A stretch of DNA of 64,000 nt from Halanaerobium praevalens DSM 2228 (GTDB lineage Bacteria; Bacillota; Halanaerobiia; Halanaerobiales; Halanaerobiaceae). Positions 53,360 through 64,000 of the stretch are shown here, in pieces (the stretch's first letter is position 1; each line of letters begins with the position of its first letter). The position numbers were made by a program, and so were the translations under genes. Under the pieces are notes generated by a model, which worked only from the letters and a program-made list of their open reading frames with translations, searched no databases and was not told the origin of the DNA. Location: the NCBI RefSeq assembly GCF_000165465.1, contig NC_017455.1, positions 558,001 to 622,000 on the forward strand, given 5' to 3'.

Positions 53360-53713
53360 ATGCCTAAAGTGTTAGTTGTAGATGATGCAGCATTTATGAG
53401 ACTGAATTTGAAAAACATATTAAAAGATGATTTTGAAGTAGTTGGTGAAGCAGAGAATGGAAAAGAAGCAGTTGAGCTTTACCAAGAATTAAAACCAGAT
53501 ATAGTGACAATGGATATCACAATGCCTGTGATGGATGGTTTAGAAGCAATTAAGGCTATTCAAGATATTGATCCTGATGCTCAAATAGTAGTTTGTAGTG
53601 CTATGGGACAGCAAAAAATTGTTATTCAAGCAATAGAGATGGGAGCAAAAGACTTTATAGTTAAGCCTTTCAAAAAAGATAGAGTTATGGAATCCTTAGG
53701 AAAATTAGTGTAA
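53360..53713 (+). CDS. cheY: chemotaxis response regulator CheY
   Basis: A 117-residue single receiver domain with Asp8/Asp9 acid pocket, phospho-acceptor Asp52 (VTMDITMPVMDG), Ser80 (VVCSAMG) and Lys102 (IVKPF). Phospho-CheY binds the flagellar switch encoded by the next operon. GGGAGG precedes the ATG. The c-di-GMP riboswitch and flgB operon follow, so read-through from cheY would also pass the riboswitch terminator. Confidence 0.95.
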   Translation: MPKVLVVDDAAFMRLNLKNILKDDFEVVGEAENGKEAVELYQELKPDIVTMDITMPVMDGLEAIKAIQDIDPDAQIVVCSAMGQQKIVIQAIEMGAKDFIVKPFKKDRVMESLGKLV

Positions 53714-53742: not shown

Positions 53743-53748
53743 TATAAT
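53743..53748 (+). promoter_or_regulatory. possible -10 box for the riboswitch-flgB transcript
   Basis: TATAAT at 53743-53748 with a poor TTATAA at 53721-53726 (16-base spacer). A start near 53755 would place the aptamer at the 5' end of the RNA. Confidence 0.5.
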
Positions 53749-53777
53749 TTAATAAGCGATAGTTATAGTAATAAATA

Positions 53778-53853
53778 TTAGCAAAATTAGCGAAAGTTGA
53801 TGACGCAAAGTTATGGGTCTAAGATATTTAATATATTATGATTGCCAAACTGC
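53778..53853 (+). promoter_or_regulatory. cyclic di-GMP-I (GEMM-I) riboswitch aptamer
   Basis: The conserved GEMM-I elements occur in order: GCAAA (53781-53785), a stem closed by a GAAA tetraloop (53792-53795), GACGCAAAG (53802-53810), GGGTCTAAG (53815-53823, the tetraloop receptor side), an AT-rich P3 stem, and ATTGCCAAACTGC (53841-53853). AGTT and AACT pair where the consensus has GCC/GGT, a compensatory change. It is upstream of flgB and followed by a terminator hairpin, so c-di-GMP should control elongation into the basal-body operon. Confidence 0.9.
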
Positions 53854-53891
53854 ACAGCATGAAATCTATAGTCTATTGCTGTAGATTTTTT
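53854..53891 (+). terminator. riboswitch expression-platform terminator
   Basis: ACAGCA at 53854-53859 pairs with TGCTGT at 53877-53882, followed by AGATTTTTT. It begins on the base after the aptamer's last conserved segment, so ligand-induced folding could compete with it. Confidence 0.7.
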
Positions 53892-53912
53892 AAGTTGAAG
53901 GGGGTAAAAATT

Positions 53913-54299
53913 ATGGGTAATTTAGAAATAATAACCAGAGCCCTTGCTGGTTCAGCTCGCCGGGGAGAGTTGATAGCTAATAATCTTGCCAATGTAAGTA
54001 CTCCGGGATATAAAAGACAAGATATTGACTTTAAATCTGCTTTAAAAAAAGAAATTTCTGCTAAAAATTCTGTTAGTTTAAAAACAACTAGAAAAAATCA
54101 TTTACCATTTAGTAAACAATATAGATCTTTAAATGGAAATGAAAATAACAGAAGTTACAGAAATGATGATAATAGTGTAGATGTTGATGTTGAAATGGCA
54201 GAATTAGCTAAAAATAGTATTTATTATAGTGTTATGTCAAAAAGAGCTGCTGGTCATTTTTCTACTATTAATCGAGTTATTCAGCAGGGAGGTAAATAA
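53913..54299 (+). CDS. flgB: flagellar basal-body rod protein FlgB
   Basis: The 128-residue rod protein begins MGNLEIITRALAGSARRGELIANNLANVSTPGYKRQDIDF, the N-terminal rod/hook signature. ATG 53913 is the start, with GAAGGGGG upstream. An in-frame ATG at 53838 would extend the protein by 25 residues but lies within the riboswitch aptamer and has no ribosome site. First gene of the flagellar operon; two bases separate it from flgC. Confidence 0.95.
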   Translation: MGNLEIITRALAGSARRGELIANNLANVSTPGYKRQDIDFKSALKKEISAKNSVSLKTTRKNHLPFSKQYRSLNGNENNRSYRNDDNSVDVDVEMAELAKNSIYYSVMSKRAAGHFSTINRVIQQGGK

Positions 54300-54301
54300 T
54301 A

Positions 54302-54733
54302 ATGTTCAAAGGGATAGATATTAGTGCATCTGGTTTAACTGCACAGCGACTAAGAATGGATACTATTTCTTCTAATATTGCAAATGCAGAAACTACTAGA
54401 GACGAAAATGGAAATACATATAGAAGAAAGACACCTATTTTCAGACAAAAATTAGAAAACAAAATGGGAGCTGCAGAAGTTGGAAATGGAAGTTCTCTTA
54501 ATTCAGGTGGGGTTGAAGTTGATCAAATTGCAGAAGATCAATCACCTTTTAGACTTGAATATAGGCCGAATCATCCAGATGCAAATGAAGAAGGTTATGT
54601 TGAATTGCCAAATGTAAGTGTAATGACAGAGATGGTAAATATGATTGACGCTAGTCGTGCTTATGAAGCAAATACACAAGCTATTTCTAATTATAAGAGT
54701 ATGGCAAATAGTGCTCTTAATATCAGCACTTAA
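54302..54733 (+). CDS. flgC: flagellar basal-body rod protein FlgC
   Basis: The 143-residue protein begins MFKGIDISASGLTAQRLRMDTISSNIANAETTR and ends with MVNMIDASRAYEANTQAISNYKSMANSALNI, the paired terminal helices of rod proteins. Ribosome site GGGAGG lies in the end of flgB. Confidence 0.96.
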   Translation: MFKGIDISASGLTAQRLRMDTISSNIANAETTRDENGNTYRRKTPIFRQKLENKMGAAEVGNGSSLNSGGVEVDQIAEDQSPFRLEYRPNHPDANEEGYVELPNVSVMTEMVNMIDASRAYEANTQAISNYKSMANSALNIST

Positions 54734-54747
54734 AAGGAGTGGCAAAG

Positions 54748-55044
54748 ATGGAAATTAATCCAATGAAGTTTCAAACAGGATTTGAAAATTTTAAAATTGA
54801 AAAAAATGAAAATCAAAAAAGTTCTAAAGCTTTTTCTGATTTATTTAAACAAAAATTAAGTGAAGTAAACCAACTGCAAAAAGATTCTCAGGCAGTAACT
54901 GCTAGTTTTGCTGCTGGCGAAACTGATAACATACATGATGTAATGATTGCAGCAGAAAAAGCTAAAATTGGTGTTAATTTGACTACTGCAGTCCAGACCA
55001 AGGTAATAGATGCTTATAATGAAATAATGCGTCTTCAAGTATAG
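54748..55044 (+). CDS. fliE: flagellar hook-basal body complex protein FliE
   Basis: About 98 residues, ending DIHDVMIAAEKAKIGVNLTTAVQTKVIDAYNEIMRLQV-like, the FliE signature, which joins the MS ring and rod. ATG 54748 with AAGGAG eight bases upstream is preferred to GTG 54739. Confidence 0.94.
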   Translation: MEINPMKFQTGFENFKIEKNENQKSSKAFSDLFKQKLSEVNQLQKDSQAVTASFAAGETDNIHDVMIAAEKAKIGVNLTTAVQTKVIDAYNEIMRLQV

Positions 55045-55092
55045 ATTTATCAATAATTTAGAATAAAGAGTATTTACGAAAGAGGTATAATG

Positions 55093-56631
55093 ATGGCCGA
55101 ATTTTTCGCAAAATACAAAGAAGAAGTAAAAGAAACATGGACAAAATTAAATAAAAGTGTACAAATATTAATTATTATTCTCACAATCTTAATGGCTGGT
55201 GCCTTCGGCTATCTTATTTTTAGGGGAGCTTCTAGTAATTATCAACCTCTTTTTACAAATTTAAGCACATCAGATACAGCTGCAATTGTAGAAAGATTAG
55301 ATGAAAATCAAGTTGATTATAAATTAGGGGGTAATGGAAATACCATTTTAGTTCCTGAAAGTGAGATTCACAGATTGAGGCTGGATATGGCTTCAGCTGG
55401 ACTTCCTGATCAGGGAGTAGTAGGTTTCGAAATTTTTGATAGTAGTGACTTTGGTACAACAGAATTTGAGAGAAGAGTCAATTATTATCGTGCTCTTGGT
55501 GGTGAACTTAGTCGCTCAATCCAGTCGATTTCGGGAATAGAATTTGCTCGAGTCCAAATTACTCCACCAGAAGAAAGTTTGTTTTTAGATGAGGAAAAAT
55601 CAGCAACTGCTTCAGTTGTTGTTAAATTGAGTGCTGGTTACAAAATGAGTTCAGAGCGAGTTCGAGCTGTACAGAATTTAGTTGCAAGTGGAGTTCAAGA
55701 TCTTCCGTTGGAAGAAGTTACCTTAGTAGATACTAATGGTAATCTTTTATCTAAACCTGTAAACAGTGAAGATGGACGCTGGTCTGATCCTCAAAATTTT
55801 GCAATTCAAAAGGAATTTGAGTCTGCTCTTAAAAATGATCTAAGAGTTCTTTTAACTAAGGTTTTAGGACCAAACAATTTTGCTGTACAAGTTAATGCAA
55901 AATTGAATTTTGATCAGCGTCATTCCGAAAGTAAGACTTATGCTCCAGTTATTGATGATAGCGGTATTATCCGTAGTCAAGAAGTTAATACTGAAAGCCA
56001 AGAAAATGGGATTAATGGTGGAGCCCCGGGAACAGATGCTAATATACCTCAATATCAAGCTGAGGGTACTGGAGAAGCTAGTAGTTATGATAGGGAAAAT
56101 ACGATTACTAATTATGAAATAAATGAAAGAATTGAAGAACATATTTACGCTCCAGGTGAAGTAGAGCGCTTATCTGTTTCAGTAATGCTTGATCAAGATA
56201 CAGATGAAGAAAAAATTGCTCAAATCAGAAATGCAGTTGGGGCTGCAATTGGATATAATGAAGATAGAGGAGATGTCTTAAATATTAGTTCTATTGCTTT
56301 TGATGATTCAATGGAAGTAGCAGCTCAAGAAGCAATGGAGGCTCAACAGGCTGCAGAGCGAAGACAAATGTATATTTATGCTGGTTTAATATTACTAGTT
56401 TTAATTTTAACCTCTGCTTTAATTATTTACTTATATCGTAAAAAACCAAGTTCAGATCAGAGCGAGCAATTAGAGCTTGCTGCTGAAGGCGATGAAGATG
56501 AAATAGATTTATTTGAACCAAATGCAGATCAGAAAAAAAGAGCAAAAGTTAAAAATGAGCTTGAAAATATGATTCATTCTGATCCAGAAAATGCAGCTAA
56601 ATTAATACGTAGTTGGATAGTTGACGAATAA
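55093..56631 (+). CDS. fliF: flagellar MS-ring protein FliF
   Basis: The 512-residue protein has two membrane helices (about 24-44 and 430-452), periplasmic ring-building motifs (YQPLFTNLSTSDTAAIVERL; ARVQITPPEESLFL) and a C-terminal FliG-binding tail ending in ENAAKLIRSWIVDE. ATG 55093 is favoured over 55090 by spacing to GAGG. Confidence 0.96.
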   Translation: MAEFFAKYKEEVKETWTKLNKSVQILIIILTILMAGAFGYLIFRGASSNYQPLFTNLSTSDTAAIVERLDENQVDYKLGGNGNTILVPESEIHRLRLDMASAGLPDQGVVGFEIFDSSDFGTTEFERRVNYYRALGGELSRSIQSISGIEFARVQITPPEESLFLDEEKSATASVVVKLSAGYKMSSERVRAVQNLVASGVQDLPLEEVTLVDTNGNLLSKPVNSEDGRWSDPQNFAIQKEFESALKNDLRVLLTKVLGPNNFAVQVNAKLNFDQRHSESKTYAPVIDDSGIIRSQEVNTESQENGINGGAPGTDANIPQYQAEGTGEASSYDRENTITNYEINERIEEHIYAPGEVERLSVSVMLDQDTDEEKIAQIRNAVGAAIGYNEDRGDVLNISSIAFDDSMEVAAQEAMEAQQAAERRQMYIYAGLILLVLILTSALIIYLYRKKPSSDQSEQLELAAEGDEDEIDLFEPNADQKKRAKVKNELENMIHSDPENAAKLIRSWIVDE

Positions 56632-56651
56632 ATGTCGAAGGGGTTTTTGTT

Positions 56652-57656
56652 ATGAAAGATGAGTTAACAGGAAAAGAAAAAGCGGCTATTTTATTAATTT
56701 CACTGGGGCCAGATGTTTCATCAGATATTTTTAAGCACTTAGATGATGAAGAAGTTGAGAAACTGACATTAGAAATTGCAAATCAAAATAAGATTGATCC
56801 CGAAGTTAAAAAGAAAATCCAAGAAGAATTTCTGCAGCTGCAGAAAGCAAATGATTATATTAATTCTGGAGGTATTAGCTATGCCAAAAAAATTCTAGAA
56901 AAATCTTTTGGTAAAGATAAAACTAAAAGTATTATTAACCGTTTAACTGCAACCCTCCAGGTTAGGCCTTTTGATTCAATTCGAGGCTCAGATCCAAGTC
57001 AACTGCTGAACTTTATCCAGGGAGAACATCCACAGACAATTGCTTTAATCCTTGTTTATATTGAGCCAACTCAAGCTTCTCAAATTTTATCAGCTCTTGC
57101 TCCAGAAGTTCAGAGTGAAGTAGCAAAGAGAATGGCTGTTATGGATAGGACTTCTCCTGAAATCATTAAAGAAGTTGAGGCAGTATTAGAGAAAAAAGTT
57201 TCCTCAGTTGCAGCTAATGAATATGCTAGTGCTGGTGGAGTTCAATCTATTGTTGATGTTTTAAATCAAGTAGACCGTGGAACTGAGAAAAATATTTTAG
57301 ATAAATTAGAAGAAGATGACCCAGAATTAGTAGAAGAAATTAAAAAGAGAATGTTTGTATTTGAGGATGTTGTTCTCTTATCTGATAGAGCAGTACAGCT
57401 TGTATTACGTCAAGTTGAGACCCATGATCTTGCTTTAGCTTTAAAAACAGCTAGTGATGAGGTAGAAAATATTATTACAGGCAATATGTCTCAAAGAGCT
57501 GCTGAGATGCTGGAAGAAGATATAGAATTTATGGGACCAGTTCGAATTAGAGAAGTAGAAGATGCTCAACAGAGAATTGTTAATGTGATTAGAGAATTAG
57601 AAGAAAGTGGAGAAATTGTTATTGCTAGAGGTGGGGAGAGTGAAGTAATTGTCTAA
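56652..57656 (+). CDS. fliG: flagellar motor switch protein FliG
   Basis: The 334-residue switch protein has LTGKEKAAILLISLGPDVSSDIFKHL at the start, the EHPQTIALILVYI middle domain and the C-terminal charged torque helix region (FVFEDVVLLSDRAVQLVLRQVE). It binds FliF and the stator. The end overlaps fliH by eight bases. Confidence 0.97.
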   Translation: MKDELTGKEKAAILLISLGPDVSSDIFKHLDDEEVEKLTLEIANQNKIDPEVKKKIQEEFLQLQKANDYINSGGISYAKKILEKSFGKDKTKSIINRLTATLQVRPFDSIRGSDPSQLLNFIQGEHPQTIALILVYIEPTQASQILSALAPEVQSEVAKRMAVMDRTSPEIIKEVEAVLEKKVSSVAANEYASAGGVQSIVDVLNQVDRGTEKNILDKLEEDDPELVEEIKKRMFVFEDVVLLSDRAVQLVLRQVETHDLALALKTASDEVENIITGNMSQRAAEMLEEDIEFMGPVRIREVEDAQQRIVNVIRELEESGEIVIARGGESEVIV

Positions 57657-58389
57657 AGTTATAAAAACTTCTCAAATGACAGGTAAGTATAAGATTAAAA
57701 GAAATCCTAAAACTCTCTCAATCAAAAAAGAACAAGAAAAGGCTAAAAACGAATCAGAAAAAAAGAATAAAAAAAAGCCTGAAGTTTTAGATGCTGAAAA
57801 AAAAGCAGAAGAAATAATTGAAGCAGCAGAAAAAAAATCAGAAAATATAATTGAACAAGCCCAAACAAAAAAAGAAGCAATAATTGAAGAAAAAGATAAA
57901 ATATATTCTGATTTAAAGGCCGAAGCGGAAGCAGAAGGTTTAAAAAAGGCCAAAGCTGAAGTAGATAAACTAAAGACAGATTTAAGTAATTTGATTTCTA
58001 GTTTTGAAAAAGAATTCAGACAAGAAAAAGATCAAATTAGACAAGACATGATTAAATTAGCAGTTAAAATTGCAAGTATAGTAATCGATGTTAAATTAGA
58101 AGTTGAAGCTGATATTATTAATAATATTATTTCTGATATGTTAAATAAAATAGATGATAATCATCGTGATATAGTTGTAAGAGTAAATCCTCAGCTCTTA
58201 CCATATGTAGATGAAAAGCAATTTTATCAGCATATCAATAAAAAAAATATTGATTTTATTTCAGATCCAGAACTTAAAAAAGGTGATTGTGTGGTTGAAA
58301 CAAATCTAGGGGGCAAAGAAGGTAGTTTAGAGCATAAGCTTGATTTAATTAAGACTGAACTATTAAAAGAGGTTGAAAAACATGATTAA
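57649..58389 (+). CDS. fliH: flagellar export regulator FliH
   Basis: A 246-residue protein with a long Lys/Glu-rich coiled coil (about 20-110) and a C-terminal FliH/HrpE domain (LAVKIASIVIDVKLEVEADIINNIISDML; DFISDPELKKGDCVVETNLG). It regulates the FliI ATPase. TTG 57649 start with GGGGAGAG eight bases before; overlaps fliG and fliI. Confidence 0.92.
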   Translation: MSKVIKTSQMTGKYKIKRNPKTLSIKKEQEKAKNESEKKNKKKPEVLDAEKKAEEIIEAAEKKSENIIEQAQTKKEAIIEEKDKIYSDLKAEAEAEGLKKAKAEVDKLKTDLSNLISSFEKEFRQEKDQIRQDMIKLAVKIASIVIDVKLEVEADIINNIISDMLNKIDDNHRDIVVRVNPQLLPYVDEKQFYQHINKKNIDFISDPELKKGDCVVETNLGGKEGSLEHKLDLIKTELLKEVEKHD

Positions 58390-59689
58390 TTTAGATCTGT
58401 CAAAATTGGAAACTAAATTAAATAATATTAATATGACTCGTAATTTTGGTCATATTAATAGAGTAATTGGTTTGGTAATTGAATCAATTGGACCTCAAGC
58501 CTCGATTGGTGAGCTTTGTTTAATTAAAGGAGAAAATGGTGATATTAAAGCTGAAGTAGTTGGCTTTGATGATAATAAGGTGTTAATGATGCCTATTGGA
58601 GAAATGGAAGGTATTCGTCCAGGAGCTAGAGTGATAGCAACTGATGAGAAACTAAAAGTTAAAGTTGGTAAAGAGCTGCTTGGTAAAATAATTGATGGTA
58701 GTGGTAATATTATTAGTGGAGAAGATCCTAGTGGCTTAAATGAAGTTCCAGTTAACAATAAACCTCCTGATCCCTTAACTAGAGCAAGGATCAAAGCTCC
58801 ATTGTCTTTGGGAGTCAGATGTATTGATGGTTTTTTGACTTGTGGTAAAGGTCAAAGAATGGGAATCTTTGCTGGTAGTGGTGTAGGTAAATCAACTTTG
58901 CTAGGAATGGCTGCTCGAAATACTAATGCGGATATTAATGTAATTGGCTTAGTTGGAGAGCGTGGGCGTGAAGTTAGAGATTTTATTGAAAAAGATTTAG
59001 GAGCTGAGGGTTTAGAAAGGTCAATAGTGGTAGTAGCTACTTCTGACCAACCTGCGCTTTTGAGAGTTAAAGCAGCAAATATTGCTACAGCAATTGCAGA
59101 ATATTTTAGAGATCAAGGAGAAGATGTTCTACTTATGATGGATTCTGTAACAAGGGTTGCAATGGCTTTAAGAGAAGTGGGACTTGCTATTGGTGAACCT
59201 CCAGCAACAAGGGGTTATCCACCTTCTGTATTTGCAGAATTGCCTAAATTATTAGAGAGAACAGGTACAAATGATGTTGGCTCAATTACTGCTTTATACA
59301 CTGTTTTAGTTGAGGGTGATGATTTTAATGAACCTGTTTCTGATACTGTAAGAGGTATTTTAGATGGACATATTTCATTATCAAGAGAATTAGCAGAATC
59401 AAGTCATTATCCTGCAGTTGATGTTTTAAGTAGTGTTAGTAGAATTATGGAAGATATAGTTAGCAAAGAGCACAGTCAGGCAGCTGCAAAATTACAAAAA
59501 ATAATTGCAACCTATAATCAGTCTGAGGATTTAATTAATATTGGAGCCTATGAAAAAGGTTCTAACCCAGAAGTTGATCGAGCTATTGCTAAAATTGATG
59601 AAATTAATAATTTTTTAACTCAGGGAATTAATGAAGAGGCCAATTATGAGAGTACTGTTCAGCAATTAATTCAAATAGCTGAAAAATAG
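58382..59689 (+). CDS. fliI: flagellum-specific export ATPase FliI
   Basis: The 435-residue F1-beta-like ATPase has Walker A GIFAGSGVGKST, VGLVGERGREVRDFI and Walker B LLMMDSVTRVAMALREVGLAIGEPP. It energises type III flagellar export. ATG 58382 follows AGAGG by nine bases; a TTG at 58373 lies too close to that site. Confidence 0.97.
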   Translation: MINLDLSKLETKLNNINMTRNFGHINRVIGLVIESIGPQASIGELCLIKGENGDIKAEVVGFDDNKVLMMPIGEMEGIRPGARVIATDEKLKVKVGKELLGKIIDGSGNIISGEDPSGLNEVPVNNKPPDPLTRARIKAPLSLGVRCIDGFLTCGKGQRMGIFAGSGVGKSTLLGMAARNTNADINVIGLVGERGREVRDFIEKDLGAEGLERSIVVVATSDQPALLRVKAANIATAIAEYFRDQGEDVLLMMDSVTRVAMALREVGLAIGEPPATRGYPPSVFAELPKLLERTGTNDVGSITALYTVLVEGDDFNEPVSDTVRGILDGHISLSRELAESSHYPAVDVLSSVSRIMEDIVSKEHSQAAAKLQKIIATYNQSEDLINIGAYEKGSNPEVDRAIAKIDEINNFLTQGINEEANYESTVQQLIQIAEK

Positions 59690-59708
59690 TAATAAAGGTG
59701 GCTGAATT

Positions 59709-60149
59709 ATGAAGGGATATAAATTTAAGTTTGAGAAAATCTTAAATTTAAGAATTCGCCAAGAAGAGCAGGAAGAAGATAAATATCTGCTTTTAAAAAA
59801 AGAGTTAAATGATATTAAAAATAGAATTAATTCTATCAAATCTGACAAAGAAGAAGTTTATGATCAGCTAAGAGATAAAGAAAATAATTTGGCTTTAAAT
59901 ATAAGTTTAAGGAAATATTTAAAAAGTCTTAATCTGAAAATAGAGAGAGCTAAAACTGAAAAAGCTGCTAAAAAAGAAAAGGTAGCTAAGCAATTGAAGG
60001 TTTTAATGGAAAAGAAAAAAGAGCGTAAAACAATGGAAAAATTAAAAGAAAAAGAAATTGAAAAATTTGTTAAAGAATTTTTTAAAGCTGAACAAAAAGA
60101 GCTTGATGAAATGGGTAGACATTATTCGATGGGTGGTCGATTAACTTGA
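59709..60149 (+). CDS. fliJ: flagellar export chaperone-like protein FliJ
   Basis: A 146-residue all-helical, charged coiled-coil protein (YKFKFEKILNLRIRQEEQEEDKYLLLKKEL), the FliJ pattern, positioned after fliI as in other Firmicutes. Its TGA overlaps the TTG start of the next gene. Confidence 0.9.
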   Translation: MKGYKFKFEKILNLRIRQEEQEEDKYLLLKKELNDIKNRINSIKSDKEEVYDQLRDKENNLALNISLRKYLKSLNLKIERAKTEKAAKKEKVAKQLKVLMEKKKERKTMEKLKEKEIEKFVKEFFKAEQKELDEMGRHYSMGGRLT

Positions 60150-60685
60150 TAAAGAAGATTTTGTTTTTTTTAATGATATTTTTAATATTATTTGCAATGT
60201 TAACCTGGTCTTTTAATGCTCTGGGTATAATTGATGTTAAAACAACAGTGAGTAACCTAGCTAACAGCACACCAGTTGTCAAAGATTATATAATAACCCA
60301 AACAGAACTGGATTCTTTAAAGGATGAAAATTCTAATTTAGAAAAAACAATTAATGAAAAAGATAGTGAAATTCTTGAATTAGAAAGTGAAATTGAAAAG
60401 GCAAATAAAAAGCTGGCTGCAAAAGATCAGGCTATTTCAGATTTAGAAACAGACTATAAGAATTTAAATACTGAAATTGATGATCGAGAAGCTAAATTAG
60501 ATAAGGTAGCAAATATTTATACCAAAATGGAACCAGCAGCAGCTGCTGCAGTTATTCAAGAACTAAATGCTAATTTAGCAGTTGAAGTTTTAAGTCGACT
60601 TAAAGATGAACAAGCTGCAGAAATACTAGAGTCTTTACCCCAACAAGAAGCTGCCAGATTTATCAGCCAGTTGGGTTTAGAATAA
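60146..60685 (+). CDS. ylxF: MotE/YlxF-like flagellar protein
   Basis: A 179-residue protein: one N-terminal membrane helix (about 4-24), a coiled coil (about 50-115) and a C-terminal MgtE-N/MotE-like module (YTKMEPAAAAAVIQEL, VEVLSRLKDEQAAEILESLP). Order fliJ-ylxF-fliK matches B. subtilis. Start is TTG 60146 overlapping the fliJ stop. Confidence 0.88.
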   Translation: MIKKILFFLMIFLILFAMLTWSFNALGIIDVKTTVSNLANSTPVVKDYIITQTELDSLKDENSNLEKTINEKDSEILELESEIEKANKKLAAKDQAISDLETDYKNLNTEIDDREAKLDKVANIYTKMEPAAAAAVIQELNANLAVEVLSRLKDEQAAEILESLPQQEAARFISQLGLE

Positions 60686-60733
60686 AAATTAAGTTCATTT
60701 AGATTAAAAATCAAAATGAAAGGAGGTGAACAA

Positions 60734-62371
60734 ATGACAGAAATGGTATTCAATAATATTTTGGAAAGCAAAAGTTATGATTTTAAACAAGCTTCTCCAA
60801 AAGAAAGTACAGCTCTAAAAGATGGTAAAAGTTTTGCTGAAACTATGGCAGAAATTAAAGAACAGCAAAAACTTAAAAAAGTTACCAAAAAGAATACTAA
60901 GACTGAAGAAAAATCGACTTCACTTAAAAATGAAGACTTTTTAGCTAAACTAAAAGAAATTATGAAAAAAAATAAAAAAGAGATTCCTGCTGAATTAATG
61001 TCTTTATTGCAGGGAGGAAGTTTAAATAATCAGCAAAAGGCGATGTTAGAATCATTAATGCTTAATTTGAAAAATAATAAGCTAAATATTTCAGATCTTA
61101 AATCTTTACTTGCTAAAAATAGTGAAAGTGAAAATGATAATTTGCAAGTTATTGAATCTTTAAACTCAGTAGATGCAGAGAATGAAATAGAACTTAAAGA
61201 TCTAGATGCTGATAGCTTAGAAAAATTAGCTTCTTTTTTAGCTGATCCAGAAAAAAATCTAAGTCAAGCAAATAAAAGCAAATTAAAATCAGAGCTAGAC
61301 CAATTAAGTAGTCTTCTAGTTAATTCTAATTCAGAGCTTGCTGAAGCTGGAGAGCAAGTCTTAAAAGCTCAAACTGCAGAAGCGAAATTAACTGAATTAG
61401 CTGGTCTTTTAAAAGATGATAAGTTGGACCTTGAGCATTTAAGCCAAATTTCAGAGCAAAAAGATCTTAAAACTCCAGTTTTAGCTGAGTTATTTGCCAG
61501 TCAACACTCAACTAATAGTAATCCAGAAAATGCTGTAAATAAAGGAGTAGAAAATACGCTTTTTGCAGAAATCAGTGCTCAGATGCAAGAAATGCTAAAA
61601 GAAGAAAATAATAAATTAGCAGCTAATAAACAATCCTCTCAGGTTGATCTTAATAATTCTGATTTATTTAGTTTAAATAGTGATTCTGTTCTGGAAGTTG
61701 ATTTTGGTAGTCAAGAATTAGCTAATAAAAATCAAAATAACTTTTTAGAACTAGATAATTCTAACTTGAATTTTAATTTTGAACTAGAAAATCAAAATAC
61801 TGCTAATAATTTAAAGTTGGATAATTTTAGCCTTGATTCTGAAAATAAATCGCAGTTAGCTGAAAATACTGATTTGAGATCTCAAGTTGTAGAACAGTTT
61901 AGAGGTCAATATTCTCCAGAAACAAAGGAGATGCAGATTCAATTAAAACCAGAATCACTTGGGAAAATTGATATCAGTCTTGCTTATGATAATGAAAAAC
62001 TAACAGGAAAAATGCTGGTTGAAAGTGAGATTGTGAGAGCTCAACTGGAAAATAGTCTTAAAGGCTTAAAATCAGACCTTTTAAAACAGGGAATTAATAT
62101 TGAGCAGTTTAAAATTGAGACTGCCAAAAATTCACCACAGCAGGTTGAAAAACAACAAGAATTTGCTTTTAATGATCAAAATTCTGCTTTTAGTGATGGA
62201 GAGACAGGTCAAAATCAAGAGTTTGAACAGCGTCAATTTTTTCAGGGCCAGTATTATGTCCAGCGCCAGAATGGAAATTCTAATTTAAAGCAAGAAAATA
62301 TTATTATGAAACAGCAAGAAATGATTAATAGAGCAGCTTTTTCGAATGAAAAGCTTAATCTGCTTGCTTAA
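60734..62371 (+). CDS. fliK: flagellar hook-length control protein FliK
   Basis: A 545-residue protein with a long low-complexity Asn/Lys/Glu/Leu-rich ruler region and the conserved C-terminal Flg_hook domain (about 390-475; MQIQLKPESLGKIDISLAYDNEKLTGKM). It measures hook length and switches export specificity. ATG 60734 follows AGGAGGTG; an ATG at 60716 precedes that site. Confidence 0.92.
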   Translation: MTEMVFNNILESKSYDFKQASPKESTALKDGKSFAETMAEIKEQQKLKKVTKKNTKTEEKSTSLKNEDFLAKLKEIMKKNKKEIPAELMSLLQGGSLNNQQKAMLESLMLNLKNNKLNISDLKSLLAKNSESENDNLQVIESLNSVDAENEIELKDLDADSLEKLASFLADPEKNLSQANKSKLKSELDQLSSLLVNSNSELAEAGEQVLKAQTAEAKLTELAGLLKDDKLDLEHLSQISEQKDLKTPVLAELFASQHSTNSNPENAVNKGVENTLFAEISAQMQEMLKEENNKLAANKQSSQVDLNNSDLFSLNSDSVLEVDFGSQELANKNQNNFLELDNSNLNFNFELENQNTANNLKLDNFSLDSENKSQLAENTDLRSQVVEQFRGQYSPETKEMQIQLKPESLGKIDISLAYDNEKLTGKMLVESEIVRAQLENSLKGLKSDLLKQGINIEQFKIETAKNSPQQVEKQQEFAFNDQNSAFSDGETGQNQEFEQRQFFQGQYYVQRQNGNSNLKQENIIMKQQEMINRAAFSNEKLNLLA

Positions 62372-62384
62372 AGGAGGTAGTTAA

Positions 62385-62891
62385 ATGTCAGAAATTGCAG
62401 GATTAACTTCTACTCAAAACCAGGCTATTAGTTCAACTAAAAATAAGGAACTTGAAACAGAACGTAAAAGTCTGGAAGGAAATGATGGTTTAGGCCAGGA
62501 TGCTTTTTTTAAGCTTTTAATCACTCAGCTGCAAAATCAGGATCCGCTTAACCCAATGGAAGATCGAGAATTTGTTTCTCAAATGGCAGAATTTTCTTCG
62601 CTAGAAAAAACTGAAAAACTTTATTCTTTACTGGAAGATAAGTTGAGTTCAAATCAAGTTATTAATAATAGTCATTTGATTGGTAAAGAAATAACTGCAA
62701 ATGTTGATGAAGGTAATTCAACAGGTGTGAAAGGGGTTGTCGAATCGATTAAATCTCAAGGTGATCAAATATTTGCAGCTTTAGATAATGGTTTAGAAGT
62801 TGACATTAATTATATTACTCAGATTCAATCAGTAACTGAGGGAAGTGAAGGCGAAACTGATGGTGAAAGTGGAGAAACAGAGGAAGCTTAA
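62385..62891 (+). CDS. flgD: flagellar hook capping protein FlgD
   Basis: The 168-residue protein has the FlgD N-terminal signature DAFFKLLITQLQNQDPLNPMEDREFVSQMAEFSSLEKT. It lacks the long C-terminal Ig/tudor part of E. coli FlgD and ends in an acidic Gly/Glu-rich tail, as in many Firmicutes. AAGGAGG upstream. Confidence 0.95.
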   Translation: MSEIAGLTSTQNQAISSTKNKELETERKSLEGNDGLGQDAFFKLLITQLQNQDPLNPMEDREFVSQMAEFSSLEKTEKLYSLLEDKLSSNQVINNSHLIGKEITANVDEGNSTGVKGVVESIKSQGDQIFAALDNGLEVDINYITQIQSVTEGSEGETDGESGETEEA

Positions 62892-62906
62892 AAAGGGGGT
62901 TTAAAG

Positions 62907-63302
62907 ATGGATAATCGATTAAAAATTAATCACCCACTCCAACCTCTTCGTAAAATACAGCAGCAAAATAAGCCTGTAAAAGAAAATAAACAAGTTAAAG
63001 GTCCTTCTTTTAAGGACATTTTAGGCGATAAGATAAAAGGAAAAGAAAAATTATCATTTTCTAAGCACGCTAAAAAAAGACTTAATTCACGTTCAATTCC
63101 ATTTTCTCAAGCTGAATTGGCTAAATTGAATACTGGAGTAGAAAAGGCCAGAAACAAAGGGGCCAGAGATTCTTTAGTTATGGTTAATGATGTGGCTTAT
63201 ATTGTCAGTGTTGAAAACAATACAGTTGTCACAGCTGTAGATGAGGAAAGTATGGATGATAATGTTTTTACAAATATAGATAGTGCTGTTTTTATGAAAT
63301 AG
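62907..63302 (+). CDS. flagellar operon protein, TIGR02530 family
   Basis: A 131-residue protein with the TIGR02530 motif: PSFKDILGD, LSFSKHAKKRLNSRSIPFSQAELAKL, GARDSLVMVNDVAYIVSVENNTVVTA. It occurs between flgD and flgE in firmicute operons; its role is unclear, perhaps as a hook assembly factor. A structured 170-base leader separates it from flgE. Confidence 0.92.
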   Translation: MDNRLKINHPLQPLRKIQQQNKPVKENKQVKGPSFKDILGDKIKGKEKLSFSKHAKKRLNSRSIPFSQAELAKLNTGVEKARNKGARDSLVMVNDVAYIVSVENNTVVTAVDEESMDDNVFTNIDSAVFMK

Positions 63303-63353
63303 GAACAAATTAATAAAGTGAAATGAGAATTAAGAAAATGTTATAAGTAAGCC

Positions 63354-63452
63354 TTTAAGCTTAAAAATTATTAAATTGAGCTTAAAATCGGATATGAGCT
63401 GGACCTTTTTCAGGAAGCTCTGTCTTGCTGTCGATAACAGCAGGACTCCGAT
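63354..63452 (+). ncRNA. structured leader of flgE: hairpin plus three-way junction
   Basis: Hairpin 1 pairs TTTAAGCT (63354-63361) with AGCTTAAA (63379-63386). Directly after it, ATCGGA (63387-63392) pairs with TCCGAT (63447-63452), enclosing two arms: GAGCT/AGCTC (63396-63400/63416-63420) with inner CCT/AGG, and a 10-pair stem GTCTTGCTGT/ACAGCAGGAC (63422-63431/63437-63446) capped by CGATA. The flgE ribosome site AAGGAGG begins nine bases later. There is no T-run, so translation control or RNA processing is likelier than termination. Not recognised as a known riboswitch class. Confidence 0.7.
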
Positions 63453-63475
63453 AAATACTGAAGGAGGAAAATTAT

Positions 63476-64000
63476 ATGTTAAGATCGATGTATGCCGGTG
63501 TTTCAGGATTGAATTCACACCAGCAGATGATGGATGTAACAGGTAATAATATTTCAAATGTAAATACAGTTGGTTTTAAAAGCAGTCGTGTTACTTTTAA
63601 AGAAATGTTAAGTCAGACCATTAGAGGTGCTTCTGCTCCTCAAGAAAATAGAGCAGGTACTAACCCACAACAGGTTGGCCTTGGTGTTGGTGTCGGAAGT
63701 ATTGATAGTGATATGTCTTCTGGTAACTTACAGTCAACTGGTAAAACTTCTGATGTAGCAATTCAGGGAGATGGATTTTTTGTGCTAAGAGATGGCAGTA
63801 CAGAAGTCTATTCTCGGGCTGGTAACTTTAATTTTGATGAACAGGGTAGACTATATTCTTCTAGTACTGGAATGTTAGTTCAGGGTTGGACAGCAAATGA
63901 AAATGGTGAATATAATAATGGATTAACTAGAAATAATCTGGGAGATATTCAACTAAAACAAGAAATTAATGCTGAAGCAACTGATAAAGTTAATTTTGCT
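63476..64000 (+). CDS. flgE: flagellar hook protein FlgE, N-terminal part
   Basis: The frame starts with AAGGAGG-spaced ATG and runs open to the window end (175 codons). MLRSMYAGVSGLNSHQQMM, then DVTGNNISNVNTVGFKSSRVTFKEML and VAIQGDGFFVLRDG are the hook/rod protein N-terminal signature. The C-terminus lies outside. It follows the structured leader and belongs to the flgB operon or to a processed segment of it. Confidence 0.95.
   Translation, partial: MLRSMYAGVSGLNSHQQMMDVTGNNISNVNTVGFKSSRVTFKEMLSQTIRGASAPQENRAGTNPQQVGLGVGVGSIDSDMSSGNLQSTGKTSDVAIQGDGFFVLRDGSTEVYSRAGNFNFDEQGRLYSSSTGMLVQGWTANENGEYNNGLTRNNLGDIQLKQEINAEATDKVNFA

Follow-up and report, generated by a model that had tools for sequence, protein, structure and literature searches.

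The locus lies in a window of 64 kb, the whole stretch of DNA that was analysed, from the genome of Halanaerobium praevalens, which is a single contig of 2,309,262 bases; coordinates are those of the window unless a genome position is stated. The genes fliW, fliS, cheA, cheW, cheC, cheD and cheY follow each other on the forward strand, with cheY (53360-53713, +; NCBIfam CheY-like) directly upstream of the element described here and not behind it. The flgB gene (53913-54299, +; TIGR01396 over the cut-off) starts with an ATG at 53913, preceded by the Shine-Dalgarno sequence GGGGG at 53900-53904 (+). It is followed, with small gaps, by flgC, fliE, fliF, fliG, fliH, fliI, fliJ, two further ORFs, flgD and a TIGR02530 gene (54302-63302, +; NCBIfam) and then by flgE, identified by Pfam and the ORF map, which begins at 63476 (+) and runs past the window end at 64000. 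From flgB, approximately 30 ORFs on the same strand, mostly with small gaps, run on for about 25 kb, as far as genome position 637434, and include flgE, flhB, flhA, flhF- and flhG-like genes, a PilZ gene and a sigma-70-like gene (fliA). All ORFs from flgB to fliA appear intact in the ORF map. By these gene assignments, the putative switch precedes the hook-basal-body, motor and export genes as well as the flagellar sigma factor gene, and the chemotaxis genes are upstream of it. The original prediction of a switch gating the whole operon is thus supported for the long operon from flgB to flgE and on to fliA, but not for the whole flagellar-chemotaxis cluster, as fliW, fliS and the che genes lie upstream.

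The covariance search that had been proposed as a check was performed with Rfam cmscan, and the c-di-GMP-I (GEMM-I) family RF01051 was the sole Rfam match in the whole 64-kb window. The match at 53770-53857 (+) scored 70.6 bits (E = 8e-12) against a gathering score of 35 bits, and was full length, covering all 87 model positions, with zero non-standard pairs. The location predicted earlier was right, although the proposed start at 53778 missed the first 8 model positions, the true start being 53770. The three motifs on which that prediction was based occur in order, GACGCAAAG at 53802, GGGTCTAAG at 53815 and ATTGCCAAACTGC at 53841, each with a single occurrence in the window, and the expected GAAA tetraloop is found at 53792-53795. 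The placement before flgB was also confirmed. In the Vc2 numbering (after PMC3764141), the conserved pocket and tertiary bases A47, C44-G83 and C92 are present together with the tetraloop. The P1 helix is not apparent, and the ligand-contacting position 20, normally a G, is an A (window position 53780). The sequence had been described as divergent from textbook examples; this divergence is mild, with a score far over the threshold and with compensatory changes in P2 and P3 that are ordinary for the c-di-GMP-I family. By class membership, the H. praevalens flgB leader is assigned as a genuine class I c-di-GMP riboswitch. An open reading frame that begins within the aptamer, at 53838, was rejected as a separate gene, as it is an upstream extension of the flgB frame.

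An intrinsic terminator hairpin had been predicted immediately after the aptamer, and this was borne out by the sequence and by conservation of the stem in eight genomes. The hairpin GAAATCTATAGTCTATTGCTGTAGATTTT (53861-53889, +) has 12 bp, is AU-rich and is followed by a T-run reaching 53891; the folding energy of 53862-53898 was -9.6 kcal/mol. The terminator is judged to be real but weak. A generic promoter and terminator scan did not detect the 53861-53889 hairpin, because the G-C pairs of its stem are too few. The same scan detected no promoter on the + strand and was on the whole uninformative. The 56-nt gap between the cheY stop codon and the aptamer contains a TATAAT at 53743-53748 (+), a possible but weak -10 element with no recognisable -35, which would place the transcription start near 53755. 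The leader strand at 53755-53768 (+) is complementary to 53866-53880, within the terminator hairpin, and the resulting duplex of 14 bp (-15.0 kcal/mol) was equalled by 0-0.5% of shuffles. It is a possible antiterminator helix private to H. praevalens. The idea that the 5' strand of P3 serves as a general antiterminator found weak support across 85 copies (KS p 0.011; 12% below 0.05) and was rejected.

FlgB was present in 25 of the 38 genomes of the order, and the nearest relatives of the H. praevalens flgB are those of Halanaerobium. Eight Halanaerobium genomes (G000, G010, G012, G014, G015, G017, G018 and G019) have a class I aptamer directly before flgB, as does G022, which represents another genus of Halanaerobiaceae. 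In the flgB leaders that were read from G013 and from the other families, no aptamer was found directly upstream of the gene. G016 has kept the platform, with a contig end near the aptamer. In this leader (L216), 181 nt before flgB, the sequence is broken inside the aptamer at the contig end and continues as unrelated sequence, which may reflect a break in the assembly or the insertion of a mobile element. The adjacency of cheY and flgB was kept in most of the flgB-bearing genomes of the order with leaders read, whether or not a riboswitch lies between them; G013 has almost no space between the cheY stop and flgB.

All 18 pairs of the aptamer were standard in all nine flgB orthologues, with 10 of the 18 varying in sequence, and A47, C44, G83 and C92 were intact across the nine leaders except for a U92 in G019. 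Eight genomes retain the terminator stem AAATCTATAG/CTGTAGATTT, in G022 with one pair changed on both sides from A-U to U-A. In G010 and G014, an unrelated hairpin GGCCTTTAG/CTAAAGGCC replaces the usual stem. This retention of a terminator while its sequence is swapped argues for a transcription-termination platform. In the same two genomes, the aptamer starts within approximately 20 nt of the cheY stop codon, so that at least there it must be an internal switch, dependent on transcripts that start further upstream.

Direct support exists for the aptamer and the terminator, for their conservation before flgB and for the gene order. Taken together, the leader of the flgB hook-basal-body operon probably contains a class I c-di-GMP riboswitch that acts as an OFF switch by termination. 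At high c-di-GMP, the nascent aptamer would bind its ligand and the P3 stem would be locked, which would leave the terminator arm free and end transcription about 20 nt before flgB. At low c-di-GMP, a part of the aptamer or leader would pair with the terminator arm, and with this arm occupied RNA polymerase would read through into flgB-fliA. The exact antiterminator is inferred. The OFF direction is suggested by the precedent of the Clostridioides difficile Cd1 switch, also class I and before flgB, which was experimentally shown to be an OFF switch (PMC6366702), and by the folding of four orthologues. The class I switches of Bacillus thuringiensis and Vibrio cholerae are not all OFF.

For the folding test, the aptamer fold was either imposed or left free, in each case in the presence and in the absence of the terminator. 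The folded aptamer favoured the terminator by approximately 3-7 kcal/mol in G015, G012, G010 and G014, in energies that exclude the ligand energy, tertiary contacts and transcription kinetics. The OFF sign in these four leaders arises because the free RNA pairs the aptamer or leader with the terminator region. The leaders of G017, G019, G018 and G022 were near neutral. For the H. praevalens leader, the predicted sign was reversed (+3.4 kcal/mol), except with a transcription start beyond approximately position 53765; for starts between 53745 and 53761, the folded aptamer disfavoured the terminator by 3.3-3.7 kcal/mol. The reversal is due to the private 14-bp helix (53755-53768/53866-53880), which competes with the terminator. 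These values might indicate an ON switch with the same aptamer and ligand, in which binding keeps the 5' leader free to pair with 53866-53880 and so blocks the terminator, and the helix involved beats at least 99.5% of shuffles. However, this helix is absent from the orthologues, whose leaders fold OFF or neutral, it is lost for starts after approximately 53765, and the C. difficile precedent is OFF, so that the ON direction is considered unlikely. OFF is the favoured direction in H. praevalens by precedent and by the orthologues, and is not settled by computation.

The genome was searched family by family for other components of c-di-GMP signalling. Two further class I copies are present, at genome positions 937363-937448 (L240 870-990), upstream of pilB-, pilT- and pilC-like genes of type IV pili, and at 187732-187818 (L239 740-850), upstream of a REC-PAS-GGDEF gene. 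These two copies share a different 3' flank (CCUCAGG..GCCAGUG..terminator), which recurs in many Halanaerobium copies. The genome has 20 GGDEF matches, of which 17 have a canonical motif with the Asp at the position described as separating diguanylate cyclases from Hypr enzymes (PMC6456294) and three are degenerate, as well as 8 EAL matches (5 full length) and one PilZ match. None of the 20 GGDEF matches was of the Hypr type and no SMODS match was obtained in the genome; a known cGAMP synthase (Hypr GGDEF or CD-NTase) was thus not found. Two near-identical GGDEF-EAL genes are located at G000:C1:1152809-1154015 and 272049-273257, and the EAL part of the copy at 1152809 is broken by a TGA or frame break.

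The ligand of the flgB-leader aptamer is likely c-di-GMP, as was predicted originally, a proposal that had overlooked the A in place of G at the ligand-contacting position 20. This assignment follows from the class membership, the cyclases of the genome and the orthologous leaders that keep G20, while A20 and the unclear P1 count against the main reading. A20 is common to all three class I copies of the H. praevalens genome. Within the order, it was found in 21 of 58 copies in Halanaerobiaceae versus 0 of 64 elsewhere, counts which cover the 122 copies found, orthologues included, and which are hence not independent. This frequency was taken from those copies and not from the 299-genome RF01051 search, for which the best-scoring matches were listed. 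The RF01051 model accepts A20, G20 being typical and not definitional, and the G at this position has been reported to be less conserved than A47 (PMC9049102). Mutation of G20 in Vc2 lowers binding approximately 30,000-fold (PMC4744006). With the affinity of 0.011 nM reported for Vc2 and c-di-GMP (PMC9049102), a loss of this size would give approximately 0.3 uM, plausibly still within cellular levels. The G019 flgB aptamer (L152/L047, from a Halanaerobium MAG) has G20 but U92, the other guanine-contacting base.

An A at the equivalent position is among the marks of the GEMM-Ib cGAMP aptamer (PMC6274999), its role in selectivity being taken from secondary papers. The A20 aptamers of Halanaerobiaceae may therefore sense 3',3'-cGAMP, or both cGAMP and c-di-GMP, and the occurrence of A20 in three of three genome copies and its restriction to this family within the order are consistent with such a change. 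Against this, the genome has neither a detected Hypr-type GGDEF nor a detected SMODS nucleotidyltransferase. In addition, the 21-46 pair is G-C in all nine flgB leaders, as in c-di-GMP aptamers, versus C15-G40 in the cGAMP aptamer (PMC6274999; the mapping is our own count), and the orthologous flgB leaders of close species carry A20 in some cases and G20 in others. A cGAMP-sensing switch at flgB is accordingly rated as quite improbable. The same low rating, on a par with it, is given to the broader proposal that, in Halanaerobiaceae, flagella and type IV pili are governed by A20 aptamers that evolved an altered ligand preference (3',3'-cGAMP or dual) and are fed by an unrecognised cGAMP source; orthologous flgB leaders would then alternate between A20/C92 and G20/U92 as two solutions for the pocket. 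Decay of the riboswitch, with neither binding nor switching left, would agree with the type strain being described as non-motile (PMC3156398), with the unclear P1 and with A20, but is very improbable given the 70.6-bit score with every pair intact, the conservation of the same features across Halanaerobium and the intact downstream ORFs.

A second structured RNA was found within the same operon, in the 173-nt gap before flgE (63303-63475). A three-way junction was predicted at 63387-63452 (+; leader 63387-63475), with a folding energy of -28.7 kcal/mol and a z-score of -4.5. The RNA was also found at G000:C1:639814-639908 and at loci L273-L336; its identity is 86-95% in 11 Halanaerobiaceae genomes. 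Using a model of the RNA, relatives were found across the class, and after refinement the model detected it in 120 genomes out of a phylum-wide sample of 249, nearly always as one copy per genome. The ORFs downstream of the 27 best new loci start like FlgE in nearly every case (22 by a strict motif and most others by eye). In Halanaerobium, second copies lie before a FlgG/FlgF-like gene (L304, L307). Covariation was strong: in an alignment of 45 sequences, which was fitted to the structure and is so biased towards it, 290 cells were changed on both sides, whereas shuffles gave 88 and slid controls 44-77. Hairpin 1 has a conserved GGACCU loop that can base-pair with the Shine-Dalgarno region of flgE (63404-63413 with 63458-63467; -13.9 kcal/mol). 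Cognate loop/Shine-Dalgarno pairs were stronger than permuted pairs (mean -13.5 versus -11.8, sd 0.24, 0/5000), relatedness not being removed from this comparison. No match was obtained in Rfam 15 and no description was found in a limited literature search. From these sequence comparisons, the flgE-leader RNA is likely to be a new and widespread translational control element able to occlude the ribosome-binding site of flgE, the hook gene.

The flgB riboswitch is an already known RNA class at an already known type of target, the Cd1-flgB arrangement. With Cd1 (Cdi-1-3; PMC6366702, PMC3649979) it shares the RNA class, the terminator platform and the position in the leader of an early flagellar operon, which spans 20-25 kb and carries the gene of the flagellar sigma factor. 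The pili genes are likewise under a c-di-GMP riboswitch in both organisms; C. difficile uses the class I switch Cd1 to shut flgB and a class II switch to open pilA1 (PMC6366702), whereas the pili genes of H. praevalens have a class I aptamer. The H. praevalens aptamer further differs from Cd1 by A20 in place of G20 (the Vc2 standard) and by its placement between cheY and flgB. Compared with the GEMM-Ib 3',3'-cGAMP riboswitch of Geobacter (PMC6274999, PMC6456294), the fold and the A at the Vc2 20 equivalent are shared, but H. praevalens keeps G21-C46 in place of C15-G40, no Hypr GGDEF was found in its genome, and the targets are flagella and pili, not cytochromes. The core of V. cholerae Vc2 (A47, C44-G83, C92 and the GAAA tetraloop; PMC3764141) is shared as well, while the A20 and the unapparent P1 differ, and Vc2 acts without a terminator.

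These results extend the C. difficile type of motility control to the Halanaerobiales. The alternation of A20 and G20 in the orthologous leaders of close species is a natural experiment on position 20, ligand choice and affinity. The type strain of H. praevalens has been described as non-motile despite its flagellar genes, and other isolates are motile (PMC3156398). As the ORFs from flgB to fliA look intact, closure of the flgB operon by high c-di-GMP would be a testable reason for the reported non-motility.
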